A stretch of DNA of 64,000 nucleotides, from the NCBI GenBank assembly GCA_021018995.1, contig CM037591.1, forward strand, positions 69,963,901-70,027,900, read 5' to 3'. Origin of the DNA: Chloranthus sessilifolius (taxonomy: Eukaryota > Streptophyta > Magnoliopsida > Chloranthales > Chloranthaceae). The notes under the pieces were generated by a model. The model was not told the DNA's origin, ran no database searches, and saw only the letters and a list, made by a program, of their open reading frames with translations. Shown here piece after piece: positions 10,951 to 64,000 of the stretch. The translations under genes were made by a program, and so were the position numbers. Each line of letters opens with the position of its first letter. Position 1 is the first letter of the stretch.

Positions 10951-11477
10951 TATATGATCAATCAGGATTTCCAAGCAGGGCTTAAGAGAATCTGGCTTGG
11001 TTTGTTTCTTGAGATTTTGATACCACAACTTAACCAGCCTTGGGTAAGACTTTTCATTTAATGGGCTCATCATGGGCGTCAGGCCTGCCTTCCCCAAATA
11101 ATTCAAAGTATCCTGACACTCCCCCAGCTTAGAGAATAGGGGATGTCGAAAATCATTTTCGGGATCAAATTTAATTTATCCACAATTTCATTGGGTGTGG
11201 ATCTAAGATTAGGCTTAGCCTCAAAAATCTCCGACTCAAGGTTAGGTTGTGTTTCAAGGGCCTCATCAACAATGTCTTCACTGGTTTGGGCATTCTTAGA
11301 TTTCTTAGACTTCTTAGATTTCACAACTTTCTCAACTTCCTCCATGACAAGTTTTCTTCTGGCCGGTGGGGTTTCCTTAGGCTGTGTGGTTTGCCTATTG
11401 GATTTCGAAGTGGCTTTGGTGGCAGATTTAGAAGGCACTTTAAAAGGATTTGCTAATACGTCCTCTTGCTTAGCCAT
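10951..11477 (-). pseudogene. Accessory ORF of Athila-C, frameshifted and truncated
   Basis: The ATG at 11477 follows the internal motif array. The first about 105 codons are basic and Lys/Ser-rich: a stretch of KSKKSKKSKN resembles a nuclear-localisation signal and is followed by acidic sequence. A one-base slip near 11160 moves the reading to the next frame, which gives FRHPLFSKLGECQDTLNYLG and then SYPRLVKLWYQNL. The latter resembles the (Y/F)PxLVxxFYxNL pattern of proteins often annotated as 'putative plant transposon protein' in the third, env-position ORF of Athila elements. The ORF is cut at the Tat-1 junction. Its function is unknown. Confidence 0.6.
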
Positions 11478-11770
11478 TGATTACTCAAACACTTCGAATT
11501 CACAACTAATCACCACACAAGCTTCTTAGGATAGTCGAATTACTCCCCCGAATTCACAATACAAACGCCTAAACTTGAAACAACATAGCGAAGTAAAAGG
11601 AAAGCTTACCGACAAAAATCTAGGGTTTGTGATATCTTGATGGGCGTGGGACCAAAACAGCTCGAACTAGGTGCAAAATATAGCTTTTGACAGATTGAAG
11701 CAATGTGGAAAATTGCTAGGAGGTTGCGATAACAGCCAGTGAGGTAGAGAGTAAAAGAAAAAGGAAAAAA

Positions 11771-12060
11771 TTGCCAGAGCAGCTTAAAGCGACGGAAAAT
11801 GTTCGTCGCGAGGATTGGGGTTTGTCGATAGGTTGCAACAACCTGTCAAAAAGTAAAGGATGGCCAATCATCGTGAGAAGGTCGACTAATCCTATCGACT
11901 GGTCCCAATGTTATAAAAAATTCATTTTGAGAGGTTCCAAGAACCTCTCGACGGCAATTTGGGCTTATGTAACATTCTCTCCGACAGGTTCTTTGCTCCT
12001 ATCGAGAAACTATCGATATGCATCAAGAGAACTTTCAGAATCCATTGATAGATTATAATT
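11771..12060 (-). promoter_or_regulatory. Internal motif array upstream of the Athila-C accessory ORF
   Basis: About nine motifs of the type TCGATAGGTT, CCTATCGAC, AACCTGTC and CCTCTCGAC lie between the pol remnant and the accessory ORF. The same motif is dense in this element's LTR (15440-15900). Downstream on the - strand, GCTATATTTTGC (near 11685) may be a TATA element, and ACCCTAGATTT followed by a GGTAAG donor-like site (near 11615) looks like a 5' leader. Confidence 0.6.
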
Positions 12061-12283
12061 CACTTCAAACAGGCTTGAAATCATTCCCACATTCATTTTA
12101 CACACAAATTTATCAAAACCCAAGTTAAATCACACAGTTCTTGCTTCTAGCCAACCTATGAAGGGCCCAAGATGTGCACATGTGAAACAATATGGAAAAT
12201 ATCAAAGGAAATAAGAATAGCAGTAATAATAACTCACCACAGTAACTAGTATACATAATGTACATTGTTGAGACTCAGCCGTG

Positions 12284-12864
12284 TTAAGGAGGGTCATGAT
12301 AGTGGTTGATTAGCACTGGTTTCCCTGCATGTAGAAACATATCATCAGCATGACCACAAGGACCAGTATACTGCAGCAGCTTGGGCAAAGTTAAAACCTC
12401 ATCCACTATTTCAATTGAGGAACAATCCTCACCATTCAAGTGGGGCTGATTGGCTAAATTGTAAACATCCAATTTAACTTTCATGTTGCCAAATGACACC
12501 TCAATTATTCCTGATCTACACTGTAAGCATGCATTGGAGTGGCCAAGAAAGGTCTGCCCAAAATCACAGGAATAGGGGTGGTGCACTTGCTTGGCTCCAT
12601 GTCAAGCACCAAGAAATCTGCTGGATAGAAGAATTTATCAACTCCAATTAATACGTCCTCGATGATTCCCACATGTTTCCTTTCAGATCTACCAACTAGT
12701 TGTAAGACCACATGTGTGGGCTTCAACTCACCTAAGCCCAACTTCTCATATACTGAATATGTAAGTAAATTCACACTAGCTCCCAGATCTAATAAGGCTT
12801 TTTCAATGGTATGATCCCCAACAAGAGACTTTTGCTGATGGACATGCCTCTCCCACACTAGCAA
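12284..12864 (-). pseudogene. Athila-C protease remnant fused to integrase tail
   Basis: The protease would cut the gag-pol polyprotein. The active-site stretch ALLDLGASVNLL is intact near 12790-12830 and is followed by VILGRPFLAT and then, after a one-base slip near 12525, by ACLQCRSGII, as in Athila-A (45900-45950). After EVLTLPKLLQY the sequence jumps to a short peptide ending INHYHDPP, which matches the end of Athila integrase (compare IHFHGTP at the end of 48511-49182). RT, RNase H and integrase cores are absent. The join keeps an open frame to 12284. Confidence 0.7.
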
Positions 12865-13740
12865 CCAATGGAGACTGTCTCTCGTCCATCATATTCTCCA
12901 GCTTTTGAGTTAAGCTGGCTACCCTTCTTACCAAATCATTATACCCACGAATCTCATACAATTTTCCTCTTGATGTATTCTCCTTCACCATTCCTCCTGG
13001 ATTGTCCACATCCCTAAAAAGAGACTCTTGCTGTAATGAATTTTTACTAATTACATCAAATAATTCCCATGCTTCTTCAGCTTTTTTATGAAGGTATGTG
13101 CCTCCACAAGAAGCATCTACCATATTTTTACTCTTCGAGTCAATTCTTTGATAGAAACTTTGGATAAGTTGCCATTCAAGAATTAGGTGGTGGGGGCATT
13201 GCCTCAACAACTCCTTGAACTTCTCCCATGCCTCTTGGAACCCTTTAGTTGGGAGTTGAGAAAATGAGAGGATATTCATCCTCAACTGACTGGTTTTAGA
13301 CGTGGGGAAAAATTTAGCTAGGAATTGGCTTTGCATGTCATCCCACGAGTTGATACTATTAGGGGGAAGCAAAGAGAATCAAGCCTTGACTTTATCCTTT
13401 AATGAAAAAGGAAATAGCCTAAGCTTGGTGGCTTCTGACCCTAGACCTGTAATGTTAAAGGTGGTACACAAGGCAAGGAATTCATCCACATGCTTGTATG
13501 GGTCTTCTTTACTCAAACCAAGGAAAGAAGCAACATCTGAATGGTTGCAGACTTAATCTCATAATTAGTTTCCACAGCAGGAACCTGGATACAAAAAGGA
13601 GAGTTGTATGCAGCAGGTGCATAATATTCCTCCAACAACAACCTCGGTTGCTCACCCATTGCAACAGATTCAGTTTCAGCAGATGTAGATGGGGTTTGTT
13701 TGGATCTAAGAATCCTTTCAAACTCTGGATTTAATGGCAA
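12803..13740 (-). pseudogene. gag: Athila-C gag, decayed
   Basis: The start peptide runs from 13740 (MPLNPEFERIL) through YAPAAYNSPFCIQ and NYEIKSATIQM, the same order as in Athila-A (43700) and Athila-B (53540). The frame then breaks near 13515. The core resumes at 13372 with NSINSWDDMQSQFLAKFF, SQLRMNILSFSQ, RQCPHHLI and SFYQRID. The zinc knuckle and Gln-rich tail seen in the other families are missing: after GEACP the sequence runs almost directly into protease, so a second internal deletion removed the gag C-terminus. Confidence 0.75.
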
Positions 13741-14090: not shown

Positions 14091-14625
14091 ACAACTTGTT
14101 GAGGAAATTGAGTGTGCTGATTTAGTGTGTAACAAAATAAAATCAAATTAAATTAATGGATGGATTTAGCATAACTACAATCTCCTAGACCTGTAAGATA
14201 CAGGGCTATTGCAGTAAGTTTTATAGGTAAGTAAGGGTATCTCCACAGGAAAAATGTGAATAAACTATGATGGATCTCCATATCTACAATAGATTTGGCA
14301 CTCTATCCTAATTTAAGCTACTCTAAAACAAGAGAGAGGAGAGGTTTTTTTGGGTTTTTGTCACTGTAAACTATAGGTTTTAAATACAGTTGATCCAGAG
14401 CTTAAGAGAACATAGAGGCAAAAGAAAATGGATTAAAAATCAAAAGGATGAAAATCAACAGCTAGGGATATGGTATTCCACTAAAAATGAATCGAATCAA
14501 TGGCAATGCTTAGATCAGATCTGCAATAATCCTTCATCTGGCTACAAGCTCCCCAAGTTTTACCCTGGCAGATGCATGGTAAAAGAATCTAATCTCAACC
14601 AAAGAATGGAAGCAATCCTAAGGCT

Positions 14626-14729
14626 ATGATCTGTCCACTTTAATGGTCACAGACCATCCCAGAGATTGTCCCAATAAATCAAAGCAATCCTAACGCTATG
14701 AGCTGTCCACTTTAATGGTCCCAGACCAT
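14626..14729 (-). ncRNA. Conserved leader hairpin, two tandem copies (Athila-C LTR)
   Basis: On the - strand, ATGGTCTGT and ACAGATCAT (14657-14626) pair over 9 bp with one G-U, closing a 14-nt loop that contains a CCA/TGG mini-stem. A weaker second copy lies at 14729-14698. The repeat unit is 72 bp. Equivalent hairpins occur in all other Athila LTRs of the window. Confidence 0.6.
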
Positions 14730-15167
14730 CCTAGAGATTGTCTTGAGCCAATGGTTTTAATTAGAATAGGTTAACCATTATAGATGCTGTGACTGTCAGG
14801 CTATAAGCTCCCCATTTCTGGCTGGCTCACAGGAGTATCCAAACTAAGAAAATCAAATACAAATAAATGAAATCTAGCTTAGAATTAACTCTAAGACCCA
14901 TAATTCCATTGCAATGCTACTACTTACAATGATGTGCTCAGATATACAATATGTGCAACATCCAATCCCTCACAAAGCCTTTGAAACTCTCAATTACAGA
15001 TCATACCCTCACCCTAGCTACTGAAGAGGTTTTTAGCCAACCATCATTGGCTAATAATGACGAAGAAGAAGAAGAAGGAAAAGAGAGGGAGAAATTAGAG
15101 GGAAAAATGAATTCGATCTCGGCTCTACTCTCTCAATTTCTGAATGCTTTTCAATGTCATTTCTCCT

Positions 15168-15900
15168 CTTTTTAAACCTTTTTCTCATATCTATTTCAGC
15201 CAATCAGAATCCAAAAGAATAATACAATTATGCTGATGTGGCTGATCCCTCTTCTAGAAGCTTTTCTCCTATTGGTCCACAACTGACAAGTACATGTGAG
15301 GTAGTTAGCGTTCTCGCTCGTGCTTAGTTGAATGCCAAAAATACCTCCCAGGGGTCACTGTCGTTCCTTAGAGCATGTGCACGAAACCTGGAAGTTGTGA
15401 CTGTTGAAGAAGGGTCATTGGAAGTTCCTAGAATGAATGTCGAGAGGTTTTAGAGAGCTTTTTGATGGGTTCTTGGTCTGTATGCTCAGTCTTTCGATAG
15501 GTTTGGGATAAACCTCTCGCTGGGTTGAAGTGTACTAGTCGCTAGGATTAGCCTCTCTCGATAGGTTTGAAGTAGCTCTCGATACCCTCTGTTTAGTTCT
15601 TCCTTCGTCCTGTCGATAGGTTACAACCATCCTGTCGCCTTGGTGAGGTGATCGATATGTTGGGGATCATCTTTATAGGTTCTGAAGGATCTTGTCGAAG
15701 GCTTCTCTTGTTCAGCTTGATAGGTTTATCTGAACCTTGCGACTTCAACTGCACCTTCAGGTAAGGTGTCGACAGGATTCTTTCTTTCTGCAATCACAAC
15801 CTATCGACAAGCAGCTGGAACCTTACGATAGCATATTGGATTCTCTTGGTAGCTTGACAATTGAGCTTCAGAACTTCTCGACAGCTTCTTCCTTGACTTT
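15168..15900 (-). promoter_or_regulatory. U3 motif array and TATA box, Athila-C LTR
   Basis: At least a dozen CGATAGGTT / CCTATCGAC / TCTCGAC variants lie between 15900 and 15440 on the - strand. They are followed by TTTAAAAAG at 15177-15168, a plausible TATA box. Confidence 0.6.
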
Positions 15901-15974
15901 CCTCAGCTGGCACCTATTTCTGGTCCACTATCTTCCATCTGTTAGCACTTAGCAACCTCTTGGTGGGTTCAACA

Positions 15975-16641
15975 CTGACTCAGTGAGTGATCGGTTGATT
16001 GGCTCAGCCGGGTATCCCAGTCCTAGTCTAAGTAGACCAATTGCGCACTCTGATTATTGCACTCAATCAATTAAGGGCTTGAATACATGCGCTTAATAGG
16101 AGATTTTAGGTGGTTTAAGGAGTTAGAAGGCGGGTCGGCTTAGGAAACAATTACGCACTCGTGTAGAAGTGCATAATCCAATTGCGCATATTATGTAGGG
16201 CGTACAATCACGTCTTAAGTGGTTTCTAGGAAGCTAAACGGCTAGTCCAAAAGGGACTAATTATGCGCTAGTGGTGAAGCCTGTAATGTGATTGCGCGCG
16301 CCTGCCAGGGCACGTAATCGAGGCCTAAGGCGATCCTCAGGGGATGCAATCCTGGTCCAAGAGGGACCAATTATGCGCCAGCCATGGGGCATGCAATCAA
16401 GTTATGCGTGCTAGATATGGCGCATAATTTAGGACTTCCTTGGGTTTGAGTCGGGTCTGAGCCACAGAGCTATGTTTTCAGCCTAGGTCTCGACCATGTA
16501 CTATTGTTTTGGTGTCTAGTCTCTATATAGGGTTTTAAAGTCTTCAGAGAAGGTTAGTCATTTTTTGAAGATCATGGGCAAGGTCAAAGGTTGAACGAAT
16601 AAATTTATATACTCTGAGAGGGAAAAATGGGGGTGTCTACA
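15975..16641 (-). repeat. 3' LTR fragment of Tat-3
   Basis: It starts TGTAGACACCCCC on the - strand at 16641 and follows the same order as the Tat-1 LTR: AAACAATAG unit, GTGGCTCAGACCC, then a GCGC/AATT array. It is cut at the position equivalent to about 700 in the Tat-1 LTR, beside Athila-C. Confidence 0.8.
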
Positions 16642-18689: not shown

Positions 18690-19195
18690 AATGTGGTTAT
18701 AGCTGATTATTGCGCGCAGGGTACCCAACGTTTAATTAAATTGCGCGACAAGCCACATGTGTGCGATTAAGGGATTAGGGAAGTGATTGCGCGCCCGTAT
18801 GTATCCGTGTGATATCATTATGCACTCTGAGGACAACACATAATTCAAGAGTCATAAGGCTGAGAGAGCGCAGGTGTTCGGGCTTTGACTCGAATTACGT
18901 GCATGAGGACTAGCGTGTAATCCAATTATGTGCTTGTATCCATGCACACAATCAGGGAGTCACCAGGTCACTGTGCGGGTGTCCCTTTGGAATCCTTATG
19001 GTAACTTAGGCATGTAATTGAGTTGTGTGTAGGCTTGGTTGTGTGTTATTGTAATGTCGGGACTTGTGTACGAGTAGAAGTTCAATTGCACGCCACTCAG
19101 AGTGCGCGTGATTGTGTTTAAGTGCTTATGTATGTGCGCATAATTGAATTGGGAATTCAATTTCAGGCGTTTAATTAGGAGGGTTCCTATATATA
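18690..19195 (+). promoter_or_regulatory. Antisense promoter-like region A of Tat-3
   Basis: It has GCGCGCAGGG, AAATTGCGCGAC, GATTGCGCGCCC, GTGCGCGTGATTG, GTGCGCATAATTG and many decayed forms, then CTATATATATCC (about 19185-19196). The order matches the LTR U3. The inverted homologue in Tat-1 is 9769-10170. Confidence 0.55.
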
Positions 19196-20720: not shown

Positions 20721-21114
20721 GGTGTAATTTGTAATTTGTAATTAATTATTACATTTATGAGAAATATTTACTTATAATTTTTTATATTCAGAATTTTTTT
20801 TTTGACTTTTCTTGGTTTGGATTCACTCTATTTGGTTGGGTTATTATTCTCTTCTTTTTAGTGTAGTTAAGTTGGAAATGTTTTTAGTGTATTGGTTTTG
20901 TTTTGATTTAACATGGGTTTCAGATGGGCTATGATAGCTTTAAGCAGTTAAGTATGGGTGCATAGATGAATTCTTTTGTTTATGGGGGGTAAGTTCTTAA
21001 GTGAGAGTTGTACGTGCGAAATCTGGATTGTGTATCGTGTGTAAGTGTTGGTTTCTAAGTCTGGGTTTTCAATTTTGGCTGTTGATGGCTGGTACAAATT
21101 TTTTTGTTGAACCT
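20721..21114. other. No gene seen
   Basis: A/T-rich spacer between the hairpin copy and the second antisense promoter-like region. Confidence 0.4.
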
Positions 21115-21487
21115 GGGCAATTGCGCGCAGGGTCCAGTGTGCTTAATAGAATTGCACGCCTGGTGAGTTGCGCGGGAATGATAGACCCAAGGCCAATTAT
21201 GTGCTAGGTTTGATGTGTGTAATGAAGTTGCGCGCTTGGTCAGTATCGTGTGATTCTAGCATCCCCCGGACAGTGTACAGGTGACTTTTGAATTTGCGCG
21301 CCTGGTTCAGGGCGCATAATATAATTTCGCGTCCTATCGAGAACGTGTAACCAGAGTTTGGGTAGGCGACAATTTGATTACGCGCCCGTTCAGTGGCGCG
21401 TATTTGTGATTGTGCGCTGTGGGTATCTCGCTTGATTCAATTGCGTGCCTTATCTTAAGTGCGTGGTTAAGCCACGCTCTATATAAG
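21115..21487 (+). promoter_or_regulatory. Antisense promoter B, upstream of the PMD gene
   Basis: It has a dense GCGC/AATT array (GGCAATTGCGCGCAGGG, AATTGCACGCC, GTTGCGCGCTTGG, TTGCGCGCCTGG, GATTACGCGCCC, GGCGCGTATTTG). The array is followed by a 6-bp hairpin GCGTGG-TTAAG-CCACGC (21461-21477) and CTCTATATAAG (21477-21487). The PMD-gene ATG lies 168 bases after the TATA box. Confidence 0.65.
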
Positions 21488-21654: not shown

Positions 21655-24600
21655 ATGGAGTCTGAGGGTATTGACCGACTTTCCTTCACTTCATCCGAGG
21701 TAGAGCGAATGGTCGAGGGGGTAGGTGAGGCTTCTGAGGTCTGCACTGGGACCTATGTTGTAGTTGAGGGTGATATTGAGATGGTTGTTAGGGAGGTCCC
21801 TGAGGTTGACGACAGGGCTGACGAGGATGGTGATGAGGATGCTGGTCCTCACGGGCCCGCGATTCCGTTGGAGGAGTTCATCACATGAGATCAGGTAGAT
21901 ACCCATTGAGCAAGAGTCTCTTTTATTTCTAGGCATTTAGGTTATAACGCAGAGTTCCTAGGATGGAAACCCTTTAAATTTTATGTCAAACCTGCATTTA
22001 GTTTTAGGGCGTGTGCACATTCATGCATCATATTCGTATCTAGTTTTAGGTCACATTTACTTCTTTTCTCTACATTGCTTTTATCATGTTTTGAGTGCTG
22101 GCTGTAAGTTGTTGCCTTTATTATGTTTTGTTATTATTGCTCTTTAATAGTTTTAGTCACTATTAGTGGTTGGGATTAGGGTTAGCGTAGGCATAGGTTA
22201 ATGTATTTTTTTTGTTTCATCTTCCGCTAGGAGCCTTCGGTGGTAGTCATTAGTACAGCGTGGTCGGAGTCTCATGTCTGGTACCGTCCCCTGCCTGGGT
22301 TCCAACGGGTGCGGTTGAGGGCTTTTATCTTCAGGTTGATTTTAGAGTTAGTGCCCTTCACGGTTGACTGTGGTCTTATCGGGGCGATCATGGAGAGATG
22401 GAGGGAGGAGCAGTAGGGATTAATGTTTTTAGTAGGCATGTTGTTGCCCACCCCTGAGGACTGGGTCCGTATCATTGGGCTCCGATTCACGGGAGCACCG
22501 ATCATGGGGTAGATGGAGAGTGATTATCAGGCTATGTGTTGAGAGGTGCTCTATGTCGAGTACCGGTATAGTAGATCCGAGACCGGGGTGGTTCGAGTTA
22601 CCTAATTTTTTGACACTTTTGCAAGTGGATTTGTTCCACCGAGGTGTCACTCGAAGGCGAGGATGGCGTTTATGGCATGCTATGAGGTGATGGCATGTGG
22701 GGTGCCAGTGATGGAGCTGGGAGTAGCGACAGATCGAGTACTCCAAGCATTTTTTATGCATTTCTTCAGGGCAGTCCTCTTCTCATCCTCGACCTGAGGG
22801 TGTGTGATAGGTCTTTTCGTGACCTTGCTGAGTGACCTGGATCAGGTGCCCACCTATGCTTGGGGGCAGCGGCGTTGGTGCACCTCTATGAGCAGCTTTA
22901 CCGCAGAGGGAGGGGTGTAGCAACCATCGGAGGTTTCCTCCCTTTTCTCCAGGTGAGTTTCAGTTGATTACTAGTTTCGTCGATAATGTCTTATTGACTT
23001 CAGTGTCCATCTTAGTGATAGTTTCAGACGTTGTGTGTCTAGTTCTGGGCGTACGACCATTTCTCTTTCTTGGCCCGTGGGTCCCGAGGGAGATTACTTT
23101 TACATTCCCATGGATGCATGTGTGGCGGTAGGCGTTGGGGCACTGTCGTCGATATTCAGATTTGCAGACCATGTGAGATCTCTTCGAGGACATGCACGCA
23201 GGGTAGGTACATGCTGTTTGTGTTGTCATAGTGTTTTATGTTTCAAGTTTTGGATCCACTAATGATGGTTCCTTTGTTTCTTACTGTAGGTGATTTGGAG
23301 GCCCTATGGTGCTGATGAGGATGCAGGGCAGCCGGTGATTCCGTTCGGCCAACCCTTCTTCGATGTGGACATCTGGGTCTATTGTTTTAAGAAGGTGGAG
23401 CACATCCACATCTCCCGAGTGACTCATTAGTTGGGGCTTCATCAGGGAGTCCCATTAGAGATTTGCGATCGGGTGTCGAGGAGGATGACCAGTCCTTCCA
23501 GTCACATCTTTTCATCGAGGATGACGACTCAGGTTAAGGATTTTAGAGTCGGGGGGACTAGGGTTATTGGGGCGCACGATGAGGTGGATGCCCAAGAGTT
23601 CCTGAGGTGGTTTTGTGATATAGGTGGTGGTCGACTCTTTACCCGCCCTTTCCATGGGTGCAGGCGTTCACGGATCATTGGATGCGCTTCACAGGGTGAT
23701 GGAGCAGACGATATGTGCTCCCCATCCAGACGAGGAGATGTTGCGGTCCATGACGGACTCAGTCTTCTAGGCCAGGACCTCAGAGGATGAGTTGAGGACG
23801 CAGCTTGTAGAGACCCGACGATCTCTGGTGAGTGTATTTGTTTATGTGTTTTATTCATTCCTATCTCTAATCATCTAAGTTTAATAGTCTTATTTGGTCT
23901 TGTTTGTCAGACTGGGAGGGAGAGCGAGGTTGCTGGGTAGGCGGCATTGCTCGAGTCTTACCATAGGCAGCAATAGACTGATCGGGCGGTAGCGACTAGC
24001 CTATGCTCCAAGCTCGATCGACTGGTAAGTATTTATCTCGTTCTATTTTATTAATTGTTGGCGTTTTGTTGACTTTAGCATGCCTGATTTTTTTTCTTGA
24101 TATTTGCAGAGAGCGGAGCTTTCTGCTGCTGGGGCTTTTGCTCCGACATTTGACCCGTCTTTAGTCTCCTCTTCTAGTCAGGAGGATCCGGTGATGGCTC
24201 AGCTCCGGGCGGAGCTAGAGCACTGGGTAAGTTTCTTTATTCTTTTGAGTTATCTGGCCTTGTGTTGTTAAGCAGTTTATTAATGTTGTATTATGCCTTT
24301 TCAGTGCCATCTCACTGAGGACCTCCAGACGAGGGAGGCGACTGCTGTCTCTCTGCGCCTAGAGAGTCAGGTATATTTTGTTTATGTGTAATTTGTTTGG
24401 TTCTTATTTCGTTTGCTAATCAGTTTTATCTGACAAGTTTTGTGTTTGTTTGGTTCATGTGCAGGTTATTCCTGACTCTTCTCTTGAGGCTCCTCCTCAG
24501 GAGTCGATTCCCGTTCCTTCGCAGGTATAATTGGTTAGCGTGATTATTTTTCATTCTCAATTTCGTAGTACCATTGTATCCCTAATGTTCTTTCTTTGCT

Positions 24601-25329: not shown

Positions 25330-25810
25330 CCCAGACAACCTCGAATTATGTGCCTAAAATCAGGGGTACAATGCGATTGCACGCCAACACACCAGCGTGC
25401 AATAAGTCCCTCCTAGACAAAACCTCTTTTCTCTAGACTGCCTCAAGAATCGATTGCATGCCCTAATCAGCACGCACAATCGGATTGAGCGCTCCATCAC
25501 AGGCGCGCAATTGGTCTGTCCCCGACCTCGTCTCTTAGTCTTTCACTGCCAAAATTCCATGATTAAGCATAAGATCTGAAATGCTTAATCGGATTGTGCC
25601 CTCCAAAGTAAGCGCACAATTAGTCCTAACATGATTATAACTAGGAAGCCCAGCTGAGCTAGTCAGCCGGTCGCTCACGGACGGTCACTCAAAGCGAATA
25701 AGTGCCTGCTAACTGGTGCGCAATTCAATTAAACGCCTGAAACAAGGCGTGTAATTGAAAATTAAGTGCACCCCATAGGGCGCGTAATTAGTAAAAAACC
25801 TATAAAAAGG
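25330..25810 (+). promoter_or_regulatory. U3 motif array and TATA box of Tat-2 LTR
   Basis: GCGCGCAATTGG, GCGCACAATTAG, GGTGCGCAATTC and GGCGCGTAATTAG-type motifs lead to CCTATAAAAAGG (25799-25810). Confidence 0.65.
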
Positions 25811-38118: not shown

Positions 38119-38204
38119 AATTTGAATGCATATTATGTGAATACTTGTGATGAGTAGGCTGCACAAACTATAGTGCCCTTGTTTGGCACTAGGCTCTCGC
38201 GCAT

Positions 38205-38490
38205 TCCAAATTGTGATTTGGGAAGACTCGCGCAATTCGCATAGACCATTTCTTTTGCTGTTGCGAGTTTCAATGCTGCAGAATCTCTCGTGCACTTCCA
38301 GCTCTAACTCACATAATCGTGCAATTCTGATTTCTCGTGATTCCGTTATCCAGCTGCGCGAGTCTAATGCATTTGTCATTTCCCACGCTGACTGCTGGGA
38401 CTTGATGTTTCCCAACTCACTCTCAATTAATTGTGACGACTTGGATGTTATTCAACCGTTTCATCTTCCACCATCCTCGCCTTTAAATAC
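38205..38490 (+). promoter_or_regulatory. Internal motif array and TATA-like box, Athila-A1
   Basis: CTCTCGCGCATT, GACTCGCGCAATTCGC, CTCTCGTGCAC, ATCGTGCAATTC and TGCGCGAGTC lie between 38205 and 38365. TTTAAATAC follows at 38482-38490, and the accessory ATG is 73 bases further on. Confidence 0.6.
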
Positions 38491-45800: not shown

Positions 45801-45809
45801 GATGTCCTG

Positions 45810-49182: not shown

Positions 49183-49409
49183 CCCGCAGTTGTGTCCATG
49201 TTGTACTATACTACTTTTGTTTCTACCTTAAGTTATAGAAAATTTTTGGGGATATGTGGAGTTTGATATTGTTGAGCTTGATAGAGTTTATGTGGGATTG
49301 GTATGATTTATTCTTCTTCTTCTGTGAATTGCTGGTTTTCGAATTTGAATGCATATTATGTGAATACTTGTGATGAGTAGGCTGCACTAACTATAGTGCC
49401 CTTGTTTGG

Positions 49410-49712
49410 CACTAGGCCCTCGCGCATTCCAAATTGTGATTTGGGAAGACTCGCGCAATTCGCATAGACCATTTCTTTCGCTGTCATGAGTTTCAATGCT
49501 ACAGAATCTCTCGCGCACTTCCAGCTCTAACTCCATAATCGCGCGATTCTGATTTCTCGTGATTCCCTTACCCAGTTGCGCGAGTCTAATGCATTTATCA
49601 TTTCCCACGCTAACTGCTGGGACTTGACGTTTTCCAACTCACTCTCAATTAATTGCGGCGACTTGGATGTTATTCAACCGTTTCATCTTCCACCATCCTC
49701 GCCTTTAAATAC
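49410..49712 (+). promoter_or_regulatory. Internal motif array and TATA-like box, Athila-A2
   Basis: It has CCCTCGCGCATT, GACTCGCGCAATTCGC, CTCTCGCGCAC, ATCGCGCGATTC and TTGCGCGAGTC, then TTTAAATAC (49704-49712). The CpGs are better kept than in the A1 copy. Confidence 0.6.
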
Positions 49713-49784
49713 ACAGGGAGGCCCTGTTCATCTTCATCGCATCCTATCTCCTCTCACCCTAGAGGTCCTTCCCTAATCCTAATC

Positions 49785-50021
49785 ATGGCAGATGACAAGC
49801 CGGATGCGCTGCCTAACAAGTTTTACCCGATGTGGTTGGACCCGCCGCCCCCTAAAGAGCCGGATCCCCTCCAACCCTTCTGGGATGAATACGAGGAGGT
49901 TCTGCAAATCCTTGCCAAGTAGGAGGAGGAAAAGCTTTAGCCGCAGAAGAAGAAGCAAAAGACAGAGCCATCCCTTGCCCCCTCCACTCCACCCCCTCCC
50001 CCACCTTCTCAACCCCCTCAC
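49785..50021 (+). pseudogene. Accessory ORF of Athila-A2, broken
   Basis: It is homologous to the intact 79-codon ORF at 38563. The first 45 codons agree with a few changes (PPPPKEPD for PLPPKEPD, QPFWDEYEE for QPLWDEYEE). A TAG then follows LAK at 49920, with a three-base insertion beside it. A second former CAG is TAG near 49937. The Pro-rich tail is still readable downstream. The product would be a 45-residue fragment. The array and TATA-like box upstream are intact. Confidence 0.7.
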
Positions 50022-50207
50022 CCCTGATCTCTCTCTCCTTCCCTCCTCCGTTTTTATAATTTTCTTTTACTCTTAATAAAATTTTCTTTTTCTGATATGT
50101 TGTATAGTTTTCTATTCTTGGGTACTTTATTTCTTGTTCTCGTCTTTTATGCTGTAATAACTCTGCTGCACAGACACCTTTGAACCAGTGAGGACACTGC
50201 TCCTCAT

Positions 50208-50222: not shown

Positions 50223-51719
50223 CCAGGCAGACCCTGCCAATGGAATAGCTAACATAAGTGCAGCAGACTCATCTGAGAAATATGGAAATGGACCTCTGTT
50301 CACTTAAGTCATCTGAGCAATATGGAAATGGACCTCTGTTCACTTAAGAATCATGAAATTAAAAAGTTTAAAATTTTTGCAAACCTTGGACATTATAAAC
50401 TTCTAATACTCCACATTTCCATGATAATATCACCAAGGAAACTCACTTGTATCAGCACTCAGTGAATCAATAGAGAGAGAAAAAGGTGAGGACATACTTA
50501 AAAGTTCAAAGGAAGACCATAACCAGTGAGAATTGGGCCTATAAAATTTTTTCCATCTTTTGAAGAGTAACCAAGGAAATCCCTTCTAGTTCTAAAGACT
50601 GACTGAGTCACTGTGCTCACTAGAAGTTAGGTAAATCCAAGTTGAAACAATCGACAGTACTCATGAGACTGAGGAAAGGATCAAGGCCTTCTCTTGGACA
50701 GTTTGAGCCTAATAAGACCAACCCTTAAGTAACTGCCCTTGTCCATACCCCCTTTGACTTAAACCTAAACCTATGAACCTGCTTCAGCCTACCCTCACTC
50801 TGAGAATTCAGAAGGTAAAGGAGAAAAAGTTGAAGATGGACTAGCTATGGTCAACAGTAGGTGAATGGAAAAGAAATACCTCAAATCTGGCAGTATGATA
50901 ATTGGGAGCATGGTGGCATTTCTGAAAAGTAAAAAAAAAAAAAAAAAAAAAAAGAATAAATAAAAATCAGAAAATTCCACAAGAAGGAAACAAAAATAAC
51001 AATGAAGAGAAGTAAGGGAGGAATGAAGAGGAACTTTCATTGGAAAATCAAAATCAAGAAGAGAAACTGAAGGTGAAGTCATGAATCACCTCTGTCACCT
51101 ACTGATTTCTCAATTTTGAACCCCTTCTCAACCCTCCATTCTTTCAACCCCACTCCATAAGCCACATTACAGCCCAATTAAAAGCCCTTGTTATTCAAAA
51201 GTTGAGTGAGCTGTCATGTGAAGATAAAGAGTTATCCAATCTATGGTGAGGAACTGTCAATGATGTCAGCACTTAAGAACTCTGCCTATGCTCATGCTTA
51301 CAGACCCATTTGGGGGTTGTAACTGCTCTTGAGCCTGTGAGAGAATGAACCCCTCAACAAAACCCTTATGAGAGTATGCCCTGCAAAGATTTTGGGTCCG
51401 AACTTGAATGCATTATGTATGACCTTAACCTAATTTTTGACCTAATGATAAGCTCAGTGCTGGCACACTGTTGAGAACTAGAAAATACCATTCTCCACCC
51501 TTTAACATAGGCCTTGATAGACCCTTGAGAGAACTAAATAAGTGTTTTAAGTGCTTGTATTACAGCAAACAATAAAGACAGGCTTAACCATGAAAGCAGC
51601 CTAAAAGTGCCAAAAAGATGATAATCCATGTCGATCCAAAGGAAGAAAGAGAAGGGACAACCTCACTAGCTGTCAAAATGCCTGAACTGAAGAGGCAAAG
51701 ACTTGGTCTCAACCCAAAA

Positions 51720-52342
51720 AAGAAATGTGGAGCAATTCGAACAGAAAAATGCACTACAGAGTGCTTTTCGAAAAGAATCTGAACCCTTTGAAAAGAACCT
51801 GAACTCTGCGAAAAGAACTAAAAGCTCCAGGCTTAGTTTTCGAAAAGAACCTGAACTCTTCGAAAGGATGATTGACCTATTCGAAAAGAAGAGAACTCCT
51901 TGACAGTAACGAACTTTGCGAAAAGAGCTTCAGGAGTCACAGTACCTTGCGAAAAGTTCCCTAAACTATGCGAAATGGTATTCTGGAGATTCCTAGCTTT
52001 TGCAAGGGTAATTCAGTAATCTTTTTCACGCGTCCCAATGCATTTAAAAACCTAGGGACATTCCAAAAGATTCTAAGCACGAAGCGAAGGCATATTCCAC
52101 CCCATGTGAGCACCCGAAGATGAAATCACTTGGCGGGAACTTCTAGAAGCTCTAACAGATTTTCAAATTACATAATAGAATTGATGCTTATGTCGCCTGA
52201 CTGGCCAAACCAGATCGAGCAATTCTGATTGGCCAAAACAGATCAGGATCCTTGTGCTCGACTACCATTGGTTGTTACAGATCTGAGCACTTCTGATTGG
52301 TCGATACACATCTGAGCTAGACCTGGGGAAAACTATAAATAG
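51720..52342 (+). promoter_or_regulatory. U3 motif array and TATA box, Athila-B LTR
   Basis: About ten motifs (CTTTTCGAAAAG, CTCTGCGAAAAG, CTTCGAAAGG, CCTTGCGAAAAG and others) occur at 51730-51985. CTATAAATAG follows at 52333-52342. Confidence 0.65.
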
Positions 52343-52777
52343 ATGAACCATTTGCCCAATTTGGGCATCCAGATTTTGAGTTTCATTCCTATTCCCCCAT
52401 TTCCAAATTAGCTAGTTTGTCTGAAACCCCTATAATAGCCTAACTTTTACTTGCAATTGAGAGCTGTGAGATACCTCTGTAATTCAAAAGAGAATTGTAT
52501 TCAAGACTACAAATCTGAGAGCTGTTTAAGCTGTGCTCTGTAATTGTAATGGTGAATTTGAAAAGGTTGCTATAAACCGTACATTCTCAATTGGATTCGT
52601 GTTAAGGGTTCCCTCTGATCTCCTTATTGCACTAGACACCTTTAGATTTACAGTTTTTTATGCAATTTCCCTTGATTCATTAACCCTGTGGGAATTAGTA
52701 TTTGTAACCTAATCGCTCACAGCATTTGTAGTGATATTTCTTGTTTTGAATTAAGCATTTAGATTAAAGACTATTGG

Positions 52778-52809
52778 ATGGTCTGTGGCCATTGAAGTGG
52801 ACAGACCAT
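52778..52809 (+). ncRNA. Conserved leader hairpin (Athila-B LTR)
   Basis: ATGGTCTGT (52778-52786) pairs perfectly with ACAGACCAT (52801-52809). The loop holds a CCA/TGG mini-stem. It lies about 440 bases after the TATA box, in the transcribed part of the LTR. Confidence 0.65.
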
Positions 52810-53340
52810 AGCCATAAGCCTAATTCTAATCCTTGAGTTAGATTTATTTCTCTTACATCTGTGCTTGTAGCTAGATGAAGATTGGATCATCTCTCATTTG
52901 TTCTGCAGTCATTCTCATTTTGTTTCAAGGACCAAATCAAAGTTAGATATTATTTCTCCATTTTTTATAAGTTTACATCAAAATTCCCCTAACTCAGATC
53001 TGGATCATTTAGTTTAACTTTTATTTTTATCATTTAGTTAATGTGACAAATTCAACCTCCCATCTTATGTGCTTTATAGATAGGATAAGAGGCAAGATCT
53101 GGTAGCTCAGATCTGGAGGTTTATTTTGCATTTTAAACAAATTCTCTGTGGACGATCTTTTACTCATTTGCATTTAAAACTTGCTACAATTGGCCCTGAT
53201 CTTGCAGGCTAATTCACTTCTCTCTGTGCTGATATATCTTTACTCTTTTAAATATTCCAGATTCAGTATAACTTAGCAGTTGCAAATCTGTTTTCAAAAC
53301 CCAAATAAATCATGCACACTTAGATTGACCAACAAGTTTT

Positions 53341-57343: not shown

Positions 57344-59231
57344 TGTTGACAAGTGAAAAATACCATTTTTCACCCCTAAACTTAAGTCTTGATAGACCTT
57401 TGAGAGAACTAAATAAGTGTTTTAAGTGCCTATGTTGCAGCTAACAATAAAGACAGGCTTAACCATAAAAGCAGCTCAAAAAGTGCCAAAAAGATGACAA
57501 TCCATGTCAGTCCAAAGGAAGGAAGTGAAGAAACAAACCTCGTCAGCTGTGGAAAAGTCTAAAAGGAAGAGGCAAAGACCTGTAAGAGAAGCAGCGGACA
57601 ATTCGAACAGAGAAATGCACTACAGAGTTCTTTTCGCAAAGAACCTGCACTTTTCGTAAAGAACCTTGAACTCTGCGAAAAGGACTAAAACTCCAGGCGT
57701 AGCTTTCGAAGAGCATCTGAACTCCTCGAAGAGAAGATTGAACTTTGCGAAAAGGTCCCCAAGCTTTGCGAATAGATCTCCAGAAGTTACAGTTCTTTTC
57801 CAAAAGGTCTCCAATCTGTGTGAAAAGAGCTTCAGAAGTCACAACACTTTGCGAAAAGACCCTTAAGCTTTGCGAAAAGGTATTCTGGAGATTCGTAGCT
57901 TTAACAAGGGCAATTCAGTAATCTGTTGCAAGCGTCCCAATGTGTTTTAAAACCCAAGTACATTTCGAAAGATTCTGAGCATGAACCAAAGGCATATTCC
58001 TCCCCATGTGAACACCCAAAGATGAAATTACTTGGCGGGAACTTCTAGAAGTTCCAACAGATTTTTGAATTTCCTAAACAGAATTGATGCCTCTGTTTCT
58101 TGATTGGCTGAACCAGATCAAGCAGTTCTGATTGGCCAGAACAGATCTGGATCCTGGTGCTCGACTCCTATTGGCTGATATGGATTTAACCAATTCTGAT
58201 TGGTTGATGCACATCTGAGATGGACTTGGGGAAAGCTATAAATTGACGAACCATTTGCCCAATTTGGACATCCAGATTTTGAGTTTCATTTCTAATCCCC
58301 CATTTCCCAGCCAGACAGTTTGTCTGAAATCCCTGTAATAGCTTCACTTTGATTTGCAATTGAGAGCTGTGAGACATTTCTGTAATTCAAAAGAGAGTTG
58401 TATTCAAGACTACAAATCTGAGAGCTGTTTAAGCTGTGCTCTGTAATTGTAACGGTGGATTTGAAAAGGTTGCTGTAAACCGTATTTTCTCAATTGGACT
58501 CATGTTAAGGGTTCCCTCTGATCTCCTTATTGCATTAGACTCCTTTAGATTTACTGTTTTTTATGCAATTTCCCTTGATTCATTAATCCTGTAAGAATTA
58601 GTGTTGGTAACCTAGTCTCTTACAGCATTTGTAGTGATGTTTCCTGTTCTGAATTGAGGATTTGGATTAAAAACTATTGGATGGTTTGTGGCCATTAAAG
58701 TGGACAGACCATAGCCATAAGTGTAAGCCTAATCCTTGAATTAGATTTATCTCTCTTACATCTGTGCTTATAGCCAGATGAAGATTGGATCACCTCTGCT
58801 GAGCTGCAATTATTCTCATTAGATTTCAAAGACCAAATCAGATTTAGATATTACTTCTCCATCTTTGTTTCAATCACTCCCCCAACTCGGATCTGGATCA
58901 TTTAGTTTAAATTTTCCTTTGTTTTTAGTTTGTTAAACGTGACAAATTCAAACCTCTCATCTTATCAGCTTTCTAGATAGGATAAGAAGCCAGATCTGGT
59001 AGCTCAGATCTGGAGGTTTATCTTACATTTTAAACAAATTCTCTGTGGACGATCTTTCACTCACTTACTTTTAAAACTTGCTACAATTGGTCCTGATCTT
59101 GCAGGCTAATTCTCTTCTAACTGTGCTGATATTTCTTTGATTTCTTATATAGTCTAGAGCCACTGTAATTTGGCAACTTTAAAACTATTTTCAAAACACA
59201 CATAAATCAAGCACACTAAGAAGCAACAACA
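57344..59231 (+). mobile_element. Solo LTR of the Athila-B family inside pol
   Basis: A 1888-bp LTR (TGTTGACAAG...CAACAACA) is flanked by AGCTG on both sides (57339-57343 and 59232-59236), the 5-bp target duplication. Removing it rejoins GGA-GCT-GTC-CTT in frame. It carries its own array (about twelve CTTTGCGAAAAG variants, 57598-57885), CTATAAATT (58236-58244) and leader hairpin (58681-58712, ATGGTTTGT with ACAGACCAT). The internal region was lost by LTR-LTR recombination. Confidence 0.95.
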
Positions 59232-60788
59232 AGCTGTCCTTGGACAGAGAAAGGATAAGCTGCCTCATGTCATAGCTTATGCCAGTAGATCAATGATTGA
59301 TGCACAGCTCAATTACACAACAACTGAGAAGCAACTGCTGGCAATTGTTTTTGCTTTAGAGAAATTCAGGTCATATGTCTTGGGTTCACAAATAGTGGTG
59401 TTCACTGACCACTCTGCCTTGAAATACCTTCTGTCTAAGAAGGACACCAAACCAAGATTAATCAGGTGGATCCTCTTATTACAGGAATTTGATTTACAGA
59501 TCAAAGATAAAAAGGGTGTGGAGAATGTGGTGGCTGATCACCTGTCTAGAATTTTAACTGCTGAGATTGACAGGCTGCCTATCAATGAATCTTTCCCTGA
59601 TGAGCAATTGTTTGCTATTAGCATACACACCCCTTGGTTTGCAAACATAGTCAACTTTTTGGCTACTGGAAGAATTCCTCAACATTGGAATAAAATGGAT
59701 AAAAATCTTTTCTTCTCAAAGGTTAAACATTTCATTTGGGAAGATCCTTATCTGTTTAAGAGTTGTGCTGACCAAATAATAAGATGTGTCCCTGAAGAAG
59801 AATTTCATAGAATACTTTCTATGTGTCATGAACAGGCCTGTGGAGGTCATTTTAGTGGAAACAAAACTGCTGTAAAGGTTTTGCAGTGTGGATTTTATTG
59901 GCCTACACTTTTCAAAGATGCTCTGCAAAGACAAGTCTTGCTGTAATCGCTGTAAATTGGGCAGCATTTCCAAGAGAAACTCAATGCCTTTACAGTCCAT
60001 TTTGGTAGTTGAATTGTTTGATATTTGGGGGATAGACTTCCTGGGTCCCTTTCCTCCTTCCAATGGGTGTAATTTCATTTTAGTAGCTGTGGATTATGTA
60101 TCCAAATGGAGACCACTAAAACGAATGATCACAGAGTGGTTCTGAAAATTTTAAAGGATCACATTTTTTCCAGGTTTGGTTTTCCCAGAGCTATTATCAG
60201 TGATGGGGGAAGCCATTTTTGTAACAAACATTTTGAAACTTTATTGAAAAAATACTCTGTGACTCATAGAGTAGCTACTCCATATCATCCACAAACCAGT
60301 GGACAAGTGGAGATTTCCAATAGAGAAATCAAACATATACTGGAAAAGACTGTGAAGAAGGACAGAAAGGATTGGTCCTTTAAGCTGAATGATGCATTGT
60401 GGGCATATAGGACAACCTATAAAACCCCAATTGGCATGTCCCCATTCAGGTTGGTCTATGGCAAAGCATGCCATTTACCAGTGGAGTTAGAATATAAAGC
60501 CTTTTGGGCTATTAAAACATTGAACATGGAACTGACTCATCTTTGGTAATCACAGCGCAACTTGCTGAGTTGGAGGAGCTGAGAATGGATGCATACACCA
60601 ATTCAAGATCTTACAAAGAGAAAGTCAAAGCCGTCCATGATAAAAATTTGTTGAGAAAAGAGTTCACAGCTGGCTCTAAGGTATGGCTATTTAACTCAAA
60701 ACTTAAGTTTTTTCCTGGAAAGCTGAGATCGAGATGGGAAGGGCCATATACTGTCATTCATGCAGCTCCTTACAAATTGACATTTTAG
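59232..60788 (+). pseudogene. Athila-B RNase H remainder and integrase
   Basis: RNase H continues with [34 protein letters not shown] and [15 protein letters not shown]. The integrase zinc module is [17 protein letters not shown] and NRCKLG. The core has Asp in GIDFLGPF (about 60031), Asp in ISDGGSHF (about 60200) and Glu in [11 protein letters not shown] (about 60310). The C-terminal domain is [20 protein letters not shown]. Frameshifts lie near 59930, 60105 (with loss of the VEAI residues after SKW) and 60545. All catalytic residues survive, but no continuous protein exists. Confidence 0.85.
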
Positions 60789-60964
60789 ACCCAAGTAATG
60801 GAAGAATCTTGAAAGTAAATGGTGAGGCTCAAACCATGCATTGAAATCTTGCCCATCTATCATCAAGAACCTCCCCAAATCTGATGGTATACAACTGTAT
60901 AATATGTTTTTGTTCTATAGTTTTTGCTTAGTTTTCTATTTCTCTATTTTTATTCATGTTTGTT

Positions 60965-61262
60965 CTCTTTTCGCAATGTTTAAATATGTGAAAAATTAAT
61001 TCGCAAAGTAAAAATTGTCTTTTCGCAAAGTTCAATTTACTTTTCGAAAAGGATTTGGATTTGTAACGAACTGCTCGAAAGCAATGATTTGCTTTTCGAA
61101 TAGTTGTTTCTGAAGCCATTTACTTTTCGAATGGTACTGATGCCATTCTCTGTTGAAAAAAGGGACTATTTTGGAACTTTTCGAAAACTTAACAATGACT
61201 TTGCGAAAATAACTTTGAGCATATTTAAACCCTTTCGAAGTAAGGGTTTCATATTCGAAAGC
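60965..61262 (+). promoter_or_regulatory. Internal motif array and TATA-like box, Athila-B
   Basis: Eleven motifs (CTTTTCGCAATG, CTTTTCGCAAAG, CTTTTCGAAAAGG, CTTTTCGAATAG, CTTTTCGAATGG, CTTTGCGAAAAT, CCTTTCGAAG and others) lie between integrase and the accessory ORF. TATTTAAA sits at 61222-61229. The LTR has the same motif. Confidence 0.65.
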
Positions 61263-61535
61263 TTTTTGAGAACCTCCTGTTTCACAAAAACCCTATTTCT
61301 TTCTTTCCTTGCATGATTTTAGAATTCAGCCACACTTTTCTTCACATTTGCTCGATCATTTGAGCTTGAAGAGAGGGATTTTAGCTTCTGGTCTGGTGGA
61401 TTTCAGCGAGCAAGCAACACGTTCAACCAAAACCCTAGATTTCGGTATTTTTCTGCGCATTTCCTCTGTTTATCATTTGCAAAGTTTGATTTTGTGTCAG
61501 CATTTGTTGTGGGCATTTTTATACACAACTTTAGA

Positions 61536-62130: not shown

Positions 62131-63528
62131 GCAAAAATGTCAATAATTGAGTTAACATCAATGTAGCTTATGATCAGTGGAATTTTTGAAAATGAAGTAA
62201 TTTCACACCTGTTGTTTTGAAAAATGAGGAAGTTAAAAACTTTTTGAAATTAATTTCTAGTGTAATTCTAATACTTTCATGAAGTGAATGTTAGAAAATT
62301 TCCAAAAGAAAATTGATGTTTTAGTAAACCCAAAAAGAGAGAAAACAGTGATGATATACCTCAGGAATTTGATAGAAAACCACACCCAGTGAGATTTGGG
62401 CCTGAAATGTATTCTTTGGAGGTATGAATTGGCAATTTTTTCTGCTCTAGGGACTGATTGAACCTGCTGACTTTCATTAGAAGTTACACATATCCAAATT
62501 GAAATAATTTGACAGCAATCATGATATTAAAGACATGATGTGAGGCCTCCTTTTGAACAGTTTGAACTTCAAAAATCCCCACCTTTTAAAACTGCCCTTG
62601 ATACACACCATTTGAGCTTTGTAAATCCAAGATTTCTTTGAAACCTCATCAACCTCATTTAGCCTAACCCTCACTTTGAGAATTCAGAAGGTAAAGGAAA
62701 GGAAGCTGAAGAAAGGAGAGTTGGGTATCAGTTTGGTAAAAAGAAAATTAATTGAAGGCAATGATGTATCAACAAAAGAAATATGGCATTCCAGTCAATG
62801 TTGCTTTGAAAAAAAAAAAAAAAAAAAAGGAGAAGTCATTTCATTGGAAGTTTGAAAAAGAAAGAGAAAAAGATGGCCACTTTGGTTCTGAAAATTCAAA
62901 GAAGAAGATGAAATTGTGCTGAAATAAAGAAGGTGTCCATACCACCTCCTTACCTTTACTGACTTCTCAATTTTGAACTCTATTCCACTCCTTTATTCGT
63001 GATAAATTTCACCCATAAGCCACAGTACAACCCAAGTTAAAGTCCTTACTGATCAATGATGGATTGAGCTGCCACATGGAGATAAGGATTTGTGTAATCT
63101 ATGGTGAAAGGAGCAGTGAATTCAGAACTAAAAGCAATGCCTATGCTCATGCTTACAGTCCTATTTGTGGGCTGTAACTGCTCTTAAGCCGTGTGAAATA
63201 GTACAACCCTCTTACTTACACGTTGAGTGAAAACCTGGTGAGAGTTGGGTTTAAAATCGACTTATCTGGGGTAACATCAAAGCTGGATTCTCAAATAGAA
63301 GGCAAGCTGTTCATTAATTTTTCTTGTAAATAACTGTTTGACACAAATTGAGTGAATGGTAAAAAGAATTACAGCAGAATTTTAGTTCTGAACTGATGTT
63401 TTCTTGAAAATCTTCTTATAGCCTGACTGATGCAGGTGTGAATAATCTGATTGGATGAAAGTTTGCTTTAACAGAACTGCATTGATCTTAACTGATTTAT
63501 TGGAGAAGTTTGTGGGTACATTCACTTA
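62131..63528 (+). other. Athila-B 3' untranslated region
   Basis: No gene is seen. It holds a poly(A) run at about 62811-62828 and blocks conserved with Athila-A (GAGAATTCAGAAGGTAAAGG near 62680; CTATGCTCATGCTTACAG near 63140). Confidence 0.5.
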
Positions 63529-63576
63529 AAACCCTCAGGAGACTTCACTCCTCCACTAGGGATCACCTAGGGGTTT
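63529..63576 (+). ncRNA. Predicted three-way-junction RNA upstream of the Athila-B PPT
   Basis: P1 is AAACCC (63529-63534) with GGGTTT (63571-63576). P2 is AGGAG (63537-63541) with CTCCT (63548-63552). P3 is CTAGG (63556-63560) with CCTAG (63566-63570). It is identical to the Athila-A copy, while the sequence around it has diverged. Confidence 0.55.
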
Positions 63577-63650
63577 AAAAGGCTTGTTGTATATGTTAAA
63601 TACAACTTGTTCCCTACAAAAGTGGCATTTTATTCTGTTTTTAATTTTGA

Positions 63651-63688
63651 CTTTGCTAAGGGACTAGCAAAGCTTACGTTTAGGGGTG
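63651..63688 (+). promoter_or_regulatory. Terminal hairpin and polypurine tract, Athila-B
   Basis: CTTTGCTA-AGGGAC-TAGCAAAG (63651-63672) is followed by the PPT CGTTTAGGGGTG next to the LTR. Confidence 0.75.
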
Positions 63689-64000
63689 TGTTGAGAACCA
63701 GAAAATACCATTCTCTACCCTTTAACATAGGCCTTGATAGACCCTTGAGAGAACTAAATAAGTGTTTTAAGTGCTTGTGTTACAGCTAACAATAAAGACA
63801 GGCTTAACCATGAAAGTAGCCTAAAAGTGCCAAAAAGATGATAATCCATGTCGATCCAAAGGAAGAAAGAGAAGGGACAACCTCACTAGTCAAAAATGCT
63901 CGAATCAAGAGGCAAAGACTTGGTCTCAACCCAGAAAAGAAATGTGGAGAAATTCGAACAGAAAAATGCACTACAGAGTGCTTTTCGAAAAGAATCTGAA
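63689..64000 (+). repeat. 3' LTR of Athila-B, partial
   Basis: TGTTGAGAACCAG and about 310 further bases closely match 51469-51780, including the first CTTTTCGAAAAG motif at the window end. Confidence 0.9.

Follow-up and report, generated by a model that had tools for sequence, protein, structure and literature searches.

Do retrotransposons flanked by long terminal repeats (LTRs) encode proteins that recognise arrays of short motifs typical of their own family? The question is raised by a window of 64,000 bases from Chloranthus sessilifolius (G000:C8:69963901-70027900; genome of 2,168,743,587 bases), in which LTR elements are nested in one another. Three Athila families, here called A, B and C, are present together with a fourth group, D, which we take to be of Tat type. 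In Athila-A, -B and -C, CpG-dense arrays are found in the U3 region of the LTR and again upstream of an accessory open reading frame (ORF) between pol and the 3′ LTR. In group D they are found in the LTR and upstream of antisense genes. A preliminary description of the window had paired one private palindromic motif with one private accessory protein in each of the four families and had compared the arrangement to VANC anti-silencing. We propose tentatively that the family-typical arrays are a shared enhancer for two promoters and that their most likely binder is the accessory protein of the element itself, a reading that falls just short of probable.

The ratio of observed to expected CpG ranges from 0.68 to 1.49 across 12 arrays, compared to 0.47 for the whole window, and is at least 0.88 in 11 of them. 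The motifs are near-palindromic, and a tandem-repeat finder marks just short stretches of the arrays. To limit circularity, motif models were trained on the LTR arrays alone and tested on the internal arrays. With position weight matrices, matches to the matrix of the same family exceeded those in dinucleotide shuffles in all six internal arrays tested (observed/shuffle mean: A, 4/0.6 and 4/0.8; B, 9/1.4; C, 8/1.5; D, 11/2.5 and 10/2.2). The matrices of A, B and C cross-match one another's arrays, and the motifs are therefore distinct, not strictly private. The arrangement in four families and its family-typical character were thus confirmed, and full privacy was not.

A classifier that used the six bases flanking each CpG, and was trained only on CpGs of the LTRs in the window, assigned seven of seven internal arrays to their own family. 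The call for the C internal array was weak (5.9 bits, next family 0.4), and A and D are partly confusable. When the whole window was scanned, the three B arrays came out on top with the B model, at 97, 89 and 85, the next window scoring 16. The two C arrays held ranks 1 and 2 with the C model, and the D arrays ranks 1–5, 7 and 8 with the D model; with the A model, the A arrays held ranks 1, 2 and 5 and a D array came third. Exact cores were selected after both LTR and internal arrays had been seen. The 14 distinct sites of the B core, TTTKCGMAA, within the 64 kb are confined to B LTRs, including a related solo LTR, and the B internal array; with palindromes counted twice there are 7, 8 and 9 matches in the B arrays and none in the other 11 arrays. 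The A core, CTCGCG, has 16 sites in the window, 13 of them in A arrays. The core of C is of the CCTNTCGANAGG type and that of D is TTGCGCG, the weakest of the cores, which is present in the A internal arrays too. The earlier claim that one motif serves both positions holds insofar as the motif recurs in the internal arrays, but in Athila-A the form of the site differs, CCTCGCGA in the LTR vs. CTCGCGCA in the internal arrays.

Both kinds of array are placed as upstream promoter regions might be. A TATA-like box (TATAWA or TTTAAAW) is found by the downstream end of five of seven internal and six of seven LTR arrays, in a scan from −60 to +300 bases of that end (background 1.30 per kb per strand, or approximately 0.5 expected per stretch). 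In the B and C internal regions only TATA-like variants were seen, by eye. No alignment longer than 41 bp was found between LTR and internal promoter regions in the pairs compared, which were A copy 2, B, C (one orientation only) and, for D, one LTR with two internal arrays. The internal array is therefore no plain copy of LTR sequence.

A comparison of Athila-A and Athila-B bears on the earlier proposal that motif and accessory region change together between families. The gag, reverse transcriptase (RT) and integrase pieces share 48–84% protein identity. The two 3′ regions can be aligned through the integrase (to 49125 in A and 60845 in B), and again from an extra polypurine tract on (38953 and 62086). 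The array plus ORF between these points cannot be aligned, and this is the only long such block near the start of the 3′ region. In the LTRs, alignable stretches are found solely downstream of the TATA box, and U3 is not alignable. Alignment around, not across, these parts argues that array, internal promoter, ORF and U3 changed jointly, as had been proposed.

A second polypurine-tract-like sequence, TTTGGGGGTGTG, is present 3′ of the A and B accessory ORFs and equals the terminal one of A (window positions 38986, 50211, 62119 and 40700). A second polypurine tract is mentioned for Athila4 and Calypso in PMC2829016. A similar tract 3′ of the C ORF was rejected, because in longer C copies the stretch falls inside the gene.

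Copies of families A, B and C, 39 in all, were fetched from the same genome; copies within a family are not independent. The window-trained classifier called the correct family in 34 of 36 internal regions, the region being missing from three B copies, and in 35 of 39 LTR-side windows. The internal misses were L137, which is CpG-poor, and L139. On the LTR side the misses were L126, which is interrupted, L129 and L138, whose stretches show no clear array, and L143, in which a B LTR is nested in a C element (90.6% over 1,877 bp). Weak LTR-side calls among the own-family assignments were those for L125, L137 and L139, and the LTR-side windows of L142 and L148, at an unusual distance, may be part of another element. 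Where a C copy has an array at the usual LTR distance, as six do (L140, L141 and L144–L147), half-sites in the CCTNTCGANAGG frame occur in both positions, 3–9 internally and 7–15 on the LTR side (N = A, C or G). Internal arrays are weak in L137 and L139 (1 and 2 half-sites), and L138 has 6 internal half-sites and no LTR array within the stretch.

The 79-residue ORF of Athila-A, one of the private proteins first proposed, is real as a family. A first look at the genome gave 11,013 candidates; the best 150, the two from the window included, all match at E ≤ 6.6e-32, and 102 of the 150 are stop-free. Among 20 copies picked by hand from these, 16 stay open at least as far as residue 77, two of them lacking an ATG (L114 and L118), and all 20 have at least one internal CTCGCG core. 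An LTR start was found in 17, of which 15 have 5–15 LTR cores, L125 has one and L126 none. Divergence among the A copies is highest in the arrays, 15.3% for the internal and 23.1% for the LTR array. In one copy, L126 (G000:C1:128166060-128170762), the internal array has been swapped for 631 bp of LTR U3 array in inverted orientation, 91.6% identical to the LTR of another A copy, while the TATA-like box and ORF were kept. The LTR of L126 itself looks interrupted. No replacement of this kind was seen in the other 21 of 22 A sequences looked at.

The accessory proteins of Athila-B and Athila-C are larger than the window suggests. For the B ORF, which had been described as a private protein of 140 residues with a coiled coil, 8,282 candidates were found in the genome. 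The 149 scored copies besides that of the window align only from residue 23 or 24 on, with open frames of up to 910 residues among them. One of seven B copies fetched, L130, has an open frame of 821 codons whose ends match the N- and C-terminal parts of the window ORF, which indicates that the latter is an internal-deletion remnant; a complete private protein of 140 residues was accordingly rejected, as genome copies hold a far longer gene. Structure prediction gave one long helix for the remnant, and the coiled coil is weak (heptad permutation P 0.11); since the ORF is a remnant, little rests on this. For the C ORF there were 6,847 candidates, of which 150 were scored; apart from the window's copy these show 66–87% identity, most align to residue 115 or 119, and open frames reach 775. 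One of 12 C copies fetched, L138, has a frame of 774 residues. The private env-position protein described for C, an ORF of 124 residues in the window, could not be upheld either: it is the frameshifted, truncated start of a protein homologous to that of B.

Over 305 residues, the full-length proteins of B and C are 43% identical (E 4e-59). Their basic N-termini differ, as do their proline/serine-rich linkers, and these homologous proteins go with different motifs. Protein-database searches with the B and C ORFs gave no matches; the B gag control likewise gave none, so these searches are uninformative.

A related pairing is seen in the copia lineage of the same genome. Matches to Transposase_32 (PF20167) numbered 13,855 candidates; 150 were scored, all of them above the cut-off and many in open frames of approximately 395 residues. 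Two loci were fetched. At L149 (G000:C10:126947469-126954017) a Sirevirus-like gene in the env position matches PF20167 at E 2e-18, and eight CGGACGTCCG palindromes lie within 390 bases before its ATG. Their core is CGG-CCG, which is missing from the A–D cores and was seen only at this locus. L150 belongs to this family, with a copia RT (RVT_2, E 4.4e-61) ahead of a gene 96% identical to that of L149. The array is absent there, and the end of the RT, which also matches the start of L149, is joined straight to the gene, as if by deletion. Taken together with Athila-B, these loci indicate that an env-position gene of the PF20167 type with an upstream palindromic CpG array occurs, within one genome, in a copia lineage and, with a weaker domain score, in a gypsy lineage.

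From these observations, the inverted array transfer in L126 among them, a regulatory circuit can be proposed. The array would be an upstream activating region for the LTR promoter, and hence for genomic RNA, and an array of the same family would do the same for the internal promoter from which a late accessory gene, located between pol and the 3′ LTR, would be expressed. The candidate binder would be a protein that evolves with the element, that is, the accessory protein, which in B and C is large, with a basic N-terminus and a Transposase_32-like core. It would turn on its own gene first and the LTR next, and silencing might or might not be reversed. We favour the element's own protein because of the joint turnover, the homology of B and C proteins that go with different sites, the pairing across two superfamilies and the precedent of the foamy viruses. 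A wider proposal, which we consider rather unlikely as a whole, is that the env-like gene of copia Sireviruses and gypsy Athila encodes a nuclear self-recognition factor of the Transposase_32 kind. The arrays would be its cognate sites, protein and arrays would co-change so that each family controls and desilences only itself, and inverted copying of LTR arrays would keep the site sets matched.

The closest precedent is the repeat motif of the Sireviruses rather than VANC (PMC2829016). The motifs of these Ty1/copia elements are palindromic, form CpG islands, are typical of the element and lie in the LTR before the TATA box. In the nine motif-bearing elements with env, extra copies are found in the linker, nearly all before env. 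Their core is CGG-CCG (PMC2829016, Table 3); the motif is called Sirevirus-specific, and in the text consulted no link to a protein domain is made. Shared with the present elements are the palindromic CpG array that precedes the TATA box in U3 and additional motif copies ahead of an env-position gene. However, the elements described here are Ty3/gypsy Athila and Tat elements, with cores CTCGCG, TTTKCGMAA, CCTNTCGANAGG and TTGCGCG. In foamy viruses the Tas protein binds sites in the internal promoter and, most likely, in U3, and protein and sites are poorly conserved between species (PMC3798896). Here, too, a gene near the 3′ end has its own putative promoter region, and motifs are common to U3 and the internal region. 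Binding and transactivation have been demonstrated for Tas (PMC3798896), whereas for the Chloranthus elements we infer promoter activity, binding and autoregulation. The Sirevirus motifs and the foamy virus internal promoter with Tas fit better than VANC.

Several findings weigh against recognition by the element's own protein. The B core matches PF20167 at E 3.3e-9 with 37.3 bits, below the curated cut-off of 45, and a Pfam scan of the full-length C protein gave no PF20167 match. Profiles of the B/C core and the copia protein matched weakly (E 0.0024, probability 12%). No relatedness was found between the A protein, of only 79 residues, and those of B and C, and no DNA-binding domain was recognised in the accessory ORFs of any family. 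The array borders were drawn by eye. In Athila-A, the whole ORF diverges by 8.3% among copies and part of its 3′ flank by 8.2%, and the U3 of L125 is without an array. On the favourable side stands the ratio of nonsynonymous to synonymous differences per site (pN/pS) in the A ORF, which is 0.24 when pooled across 136 pairs drawn from 17 open copies (the first of the window and 16 fetched). The value is suggestive only, because ranking the copies by protein similarity gives preference to frames that are open and conserved.

The most serious alternative, which we regard as possible but doubtful, is that the arrays work as enhancers to which host transcription factors bind. In each family a different host factor would serve both promoters, accessory and genomic RNA would be co-expressed, and the accessory protein would do something else. 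The position of the arrays before TATA-like boxes and the lack of a recognised DNA-binding domain in the accessory proteins are in keeping with this. TTYGAA, the CRC/CHR site, is enriched in the B LTR array (6 vs. 1.0), and enrichment of VCGCGB, the CAMTA site, was seen for two D arrays (5/1.3 and 6/1.7). Two B arrays also have an excess of AAAG, the short Dof core. The Sirevirus motifs were matched mainly to stress-related host sites by Bousios et al. (PMC2829016, seen in part). Yet none of 22 plant consensus sites explains A or C, or all arrays of one family; the fits to common host sites, a possibility raised at the outset, are partial. Four different host factors, all with a preference for CpG-centred palindromes, would be needed.

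VANC anti-silencing proper, in an autonomous LTR-retrotransposon version, is improbable. Here the accessory protein would mainly demethylate, and CpG methylation would block its binding. In favour are the family-typical short motifs dense in noncoding regions and the related proteins of B and C with different motifs, as the related VANC21 and VANC6 have different motifs, with binding and hypomethylation demonstrated (PMC5735166, in part). To this extent the original comparison was apt. But neither DUF1985 nor DUF287, the domains of those Mutator-like DNA transposons, was detected with Pfam, whether among the ORFs of the window or in the full-length proteins of B and C, and the present elements have LTRs, a primer-binding site (PBS), gag, RT and integrase. 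The sites of VANC21 all run in one orientation and are not palindromic (PMC5735166), unlike the near-palindromes found here, one array of which (L126) has moved inverted. The CpG ratio of at least 0.88 kept in most arrays would suit a methylation-sensitive system, but high CpG content may merely reflect young copies or the motif itself.

That the palindromes act as RNA or DNA structure, as hairpins giving rise to small RNAs or adjusting the level of silencing, a role reported for Sireviruses of maize (Bousios 2016, as cited in PMC10760457), is very improbable: RNA folding z-scores are low in the A, B and C internal arrays (−2.5 to −5.1), the C LTR array (−2.1), three D LTR arrays and one D internal array (−2.9 to −5.0), but are higher in the A LTR array (+1.15), the B LTR arrays (−0.8 and −0.9) and the first and second D internal arrays (−0.9 and −1.45), and structure leaves the family-typical motifs and the placement before promoters unexplained.

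The features are collected in Table 1. Pol pieces of Athila-A and Athila-B match RVT_1 and rve, Retrotrans_gag is found in Athila-A and Athila-C, and the gag or RT of B and C can be aligned to A. The related solo LTR lies inside the pol region of Athila-B. Athila-C is on the minus strand with gag and protease, and neither RT nor integrase was found for it in the window. For Athila-A the 3′ end of the internal region (38116–40702) is followed by the LTR and then gag-pol; a second 3′ region (49339–51469), 96.8% identical to the first, is cut by Athila-B. Between 38116 and 49339 the LTR at approximately 40703 is preceded by a 3′ internal region and followed by gag-pol, an arrangement that looks like one LTR shared between two elements. 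D LTRs start near 111, 16637 (minus strand) and 24846.

Table 1. Positions of arrays, LTRs and accessory genes in the window (ORF, open reading frame; PMD, plant mobile domain)
Feature	Position	Strand	Remarks
Athila-A LTR U3 motif array, CCTCGCGA type	40960..41600	+	upstream of TATAAA at 41714
Athila-A internal array copy 1, CTCGCGCA type	38180..38440	+	TTTAAAT at 38482
Athila-A accessory ORF copy 1, 79 residues	38563..38802	+	
Athila-A internal array copy 2	49405..49665	+	TTTAAAT at 49704
Athila-A accessory ORF copy 2, broken by stops	49785..50024	+	
Athila-B 5′ LTR	51469..53336	+	PBS at 53341
Athila-B LTR U3 array, TTTKCGMAAA type	51730..52000	+	
Related solo LTR (B′) nested in Athila-B	57344..59233	+	array 57595–57985
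Athila-B internal array, 5′ of accessory ORF	60960..61275	+	
Athila-B accessory ORF, a remnant of 140 residues	61536..61958	+	approximately 24 N-terminal and 117 C-terminal residues of 821-residue protein
Athila-B 3′ LTR start	63689..64000	+	continues past window end
Athila-C LTR, ends by eye	14099..15972	-	U3 array 15420–15870, CCTNTCGANAGG type
Athila-C internal array	11770..12060	-	
Athila-C accessory ORF, N-terminal part of 774-residue protein	11106..11477	-	frameshifted and truncated
D (Tat-type) LTR array	360..810	+	TATAAA at 820
D LTR array	16020..16460	-	LTR cut by Athila-C
D LTR array	25360..25815	+	TATAAA at 25801
D array before antisense gene	9750..10170	-	TATATA at 9776
D array before antisense gene	18690..19170	+	TATATA at 19188
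D array before antisense PMD gene	21105..21475	+	TATATA at 21480
Broken PMD gene, antisense to minus-strand D element	22231..23787	+	PF10536, E 4.2e-15

In group D, arrays and TATATA boxes precede genes that run opposite to the element. The one gene identified is a stop-ridden plant mobile domain (PMD) remnant. The match to PF10536 was obtained in one of two frames with stops entered as X, and ten separate pieces of the gene searched singly gave no PMD match; the antisense PMD protein first described is thus recognisable by its domain, but only as a remnant. Profile comparison revealed no link between the B/C core and PMD. In Tat elements such as Grande, with gene23, an antisense accessory gene in the 3′ internal region has its own promoter (review PMC7264820, in part). 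Group D appears similar, with antisense genes in this region preceded by an array and TATATA box, and differs in that its antisense promoter regions share the LTR motif and that its identified gene is a PMD remnant.

Other observations concern the window and related records. A match to Rfam snoR71 (54011–54116, minus strand, E 1.1e-10) lies opposite the sense gag ORF of Athila-B; the Rfam family was perhaps seeded from retrotransposon DNA. At 5531–6080 there is an 18-base tandem repeat, the plus strand of which encodes a repeat rich in proline, lysine, isoleucine and glutamic acid. At 24909–25243, near a D LTR start, there are approximately four copies of an 85-base tandem repeat. No viral contigs were found in a scan with the B RT, and most matches from scans for PBS patterns (4 viral, 97 prokaryotic stretches) were due to chance. 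Two of these loci, in records of Streptomyces clavifer (L014) and Blastococcus endophyticus (L059), were seen with tblastn and blastn to hold plant Athila-like pieces, apparently contamination of the two bacterial genome records. L014 has a U3 array of another, non-CpG kind, and a layout similar to the apparently shared LTR of Athila-A.

Sireviruses are already known to carry palindromic CpG arrays in their LTRs and ahead of env (PMC2829016). In searches of open-licence PMC papers no report was found of such arrays in Athila or Tat elements, nor of their link to PF20167. A sunflower study, seen in part, has reported the PF20167 domain in an extra ORF of Athila (PMC11728184). An envelope-like function for the env-position genes of plant LTR retrotransposons is controversial (PMC7264820, in part). 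If the product recognises arrays common to its own promoter and the LTR, the env-position gene would be a regulator, not an envelope. The idea would be directly testable with one protein and a few short DNA probes and, if true, would place a second class of transposons with family-specific self-recognition beside VANC.

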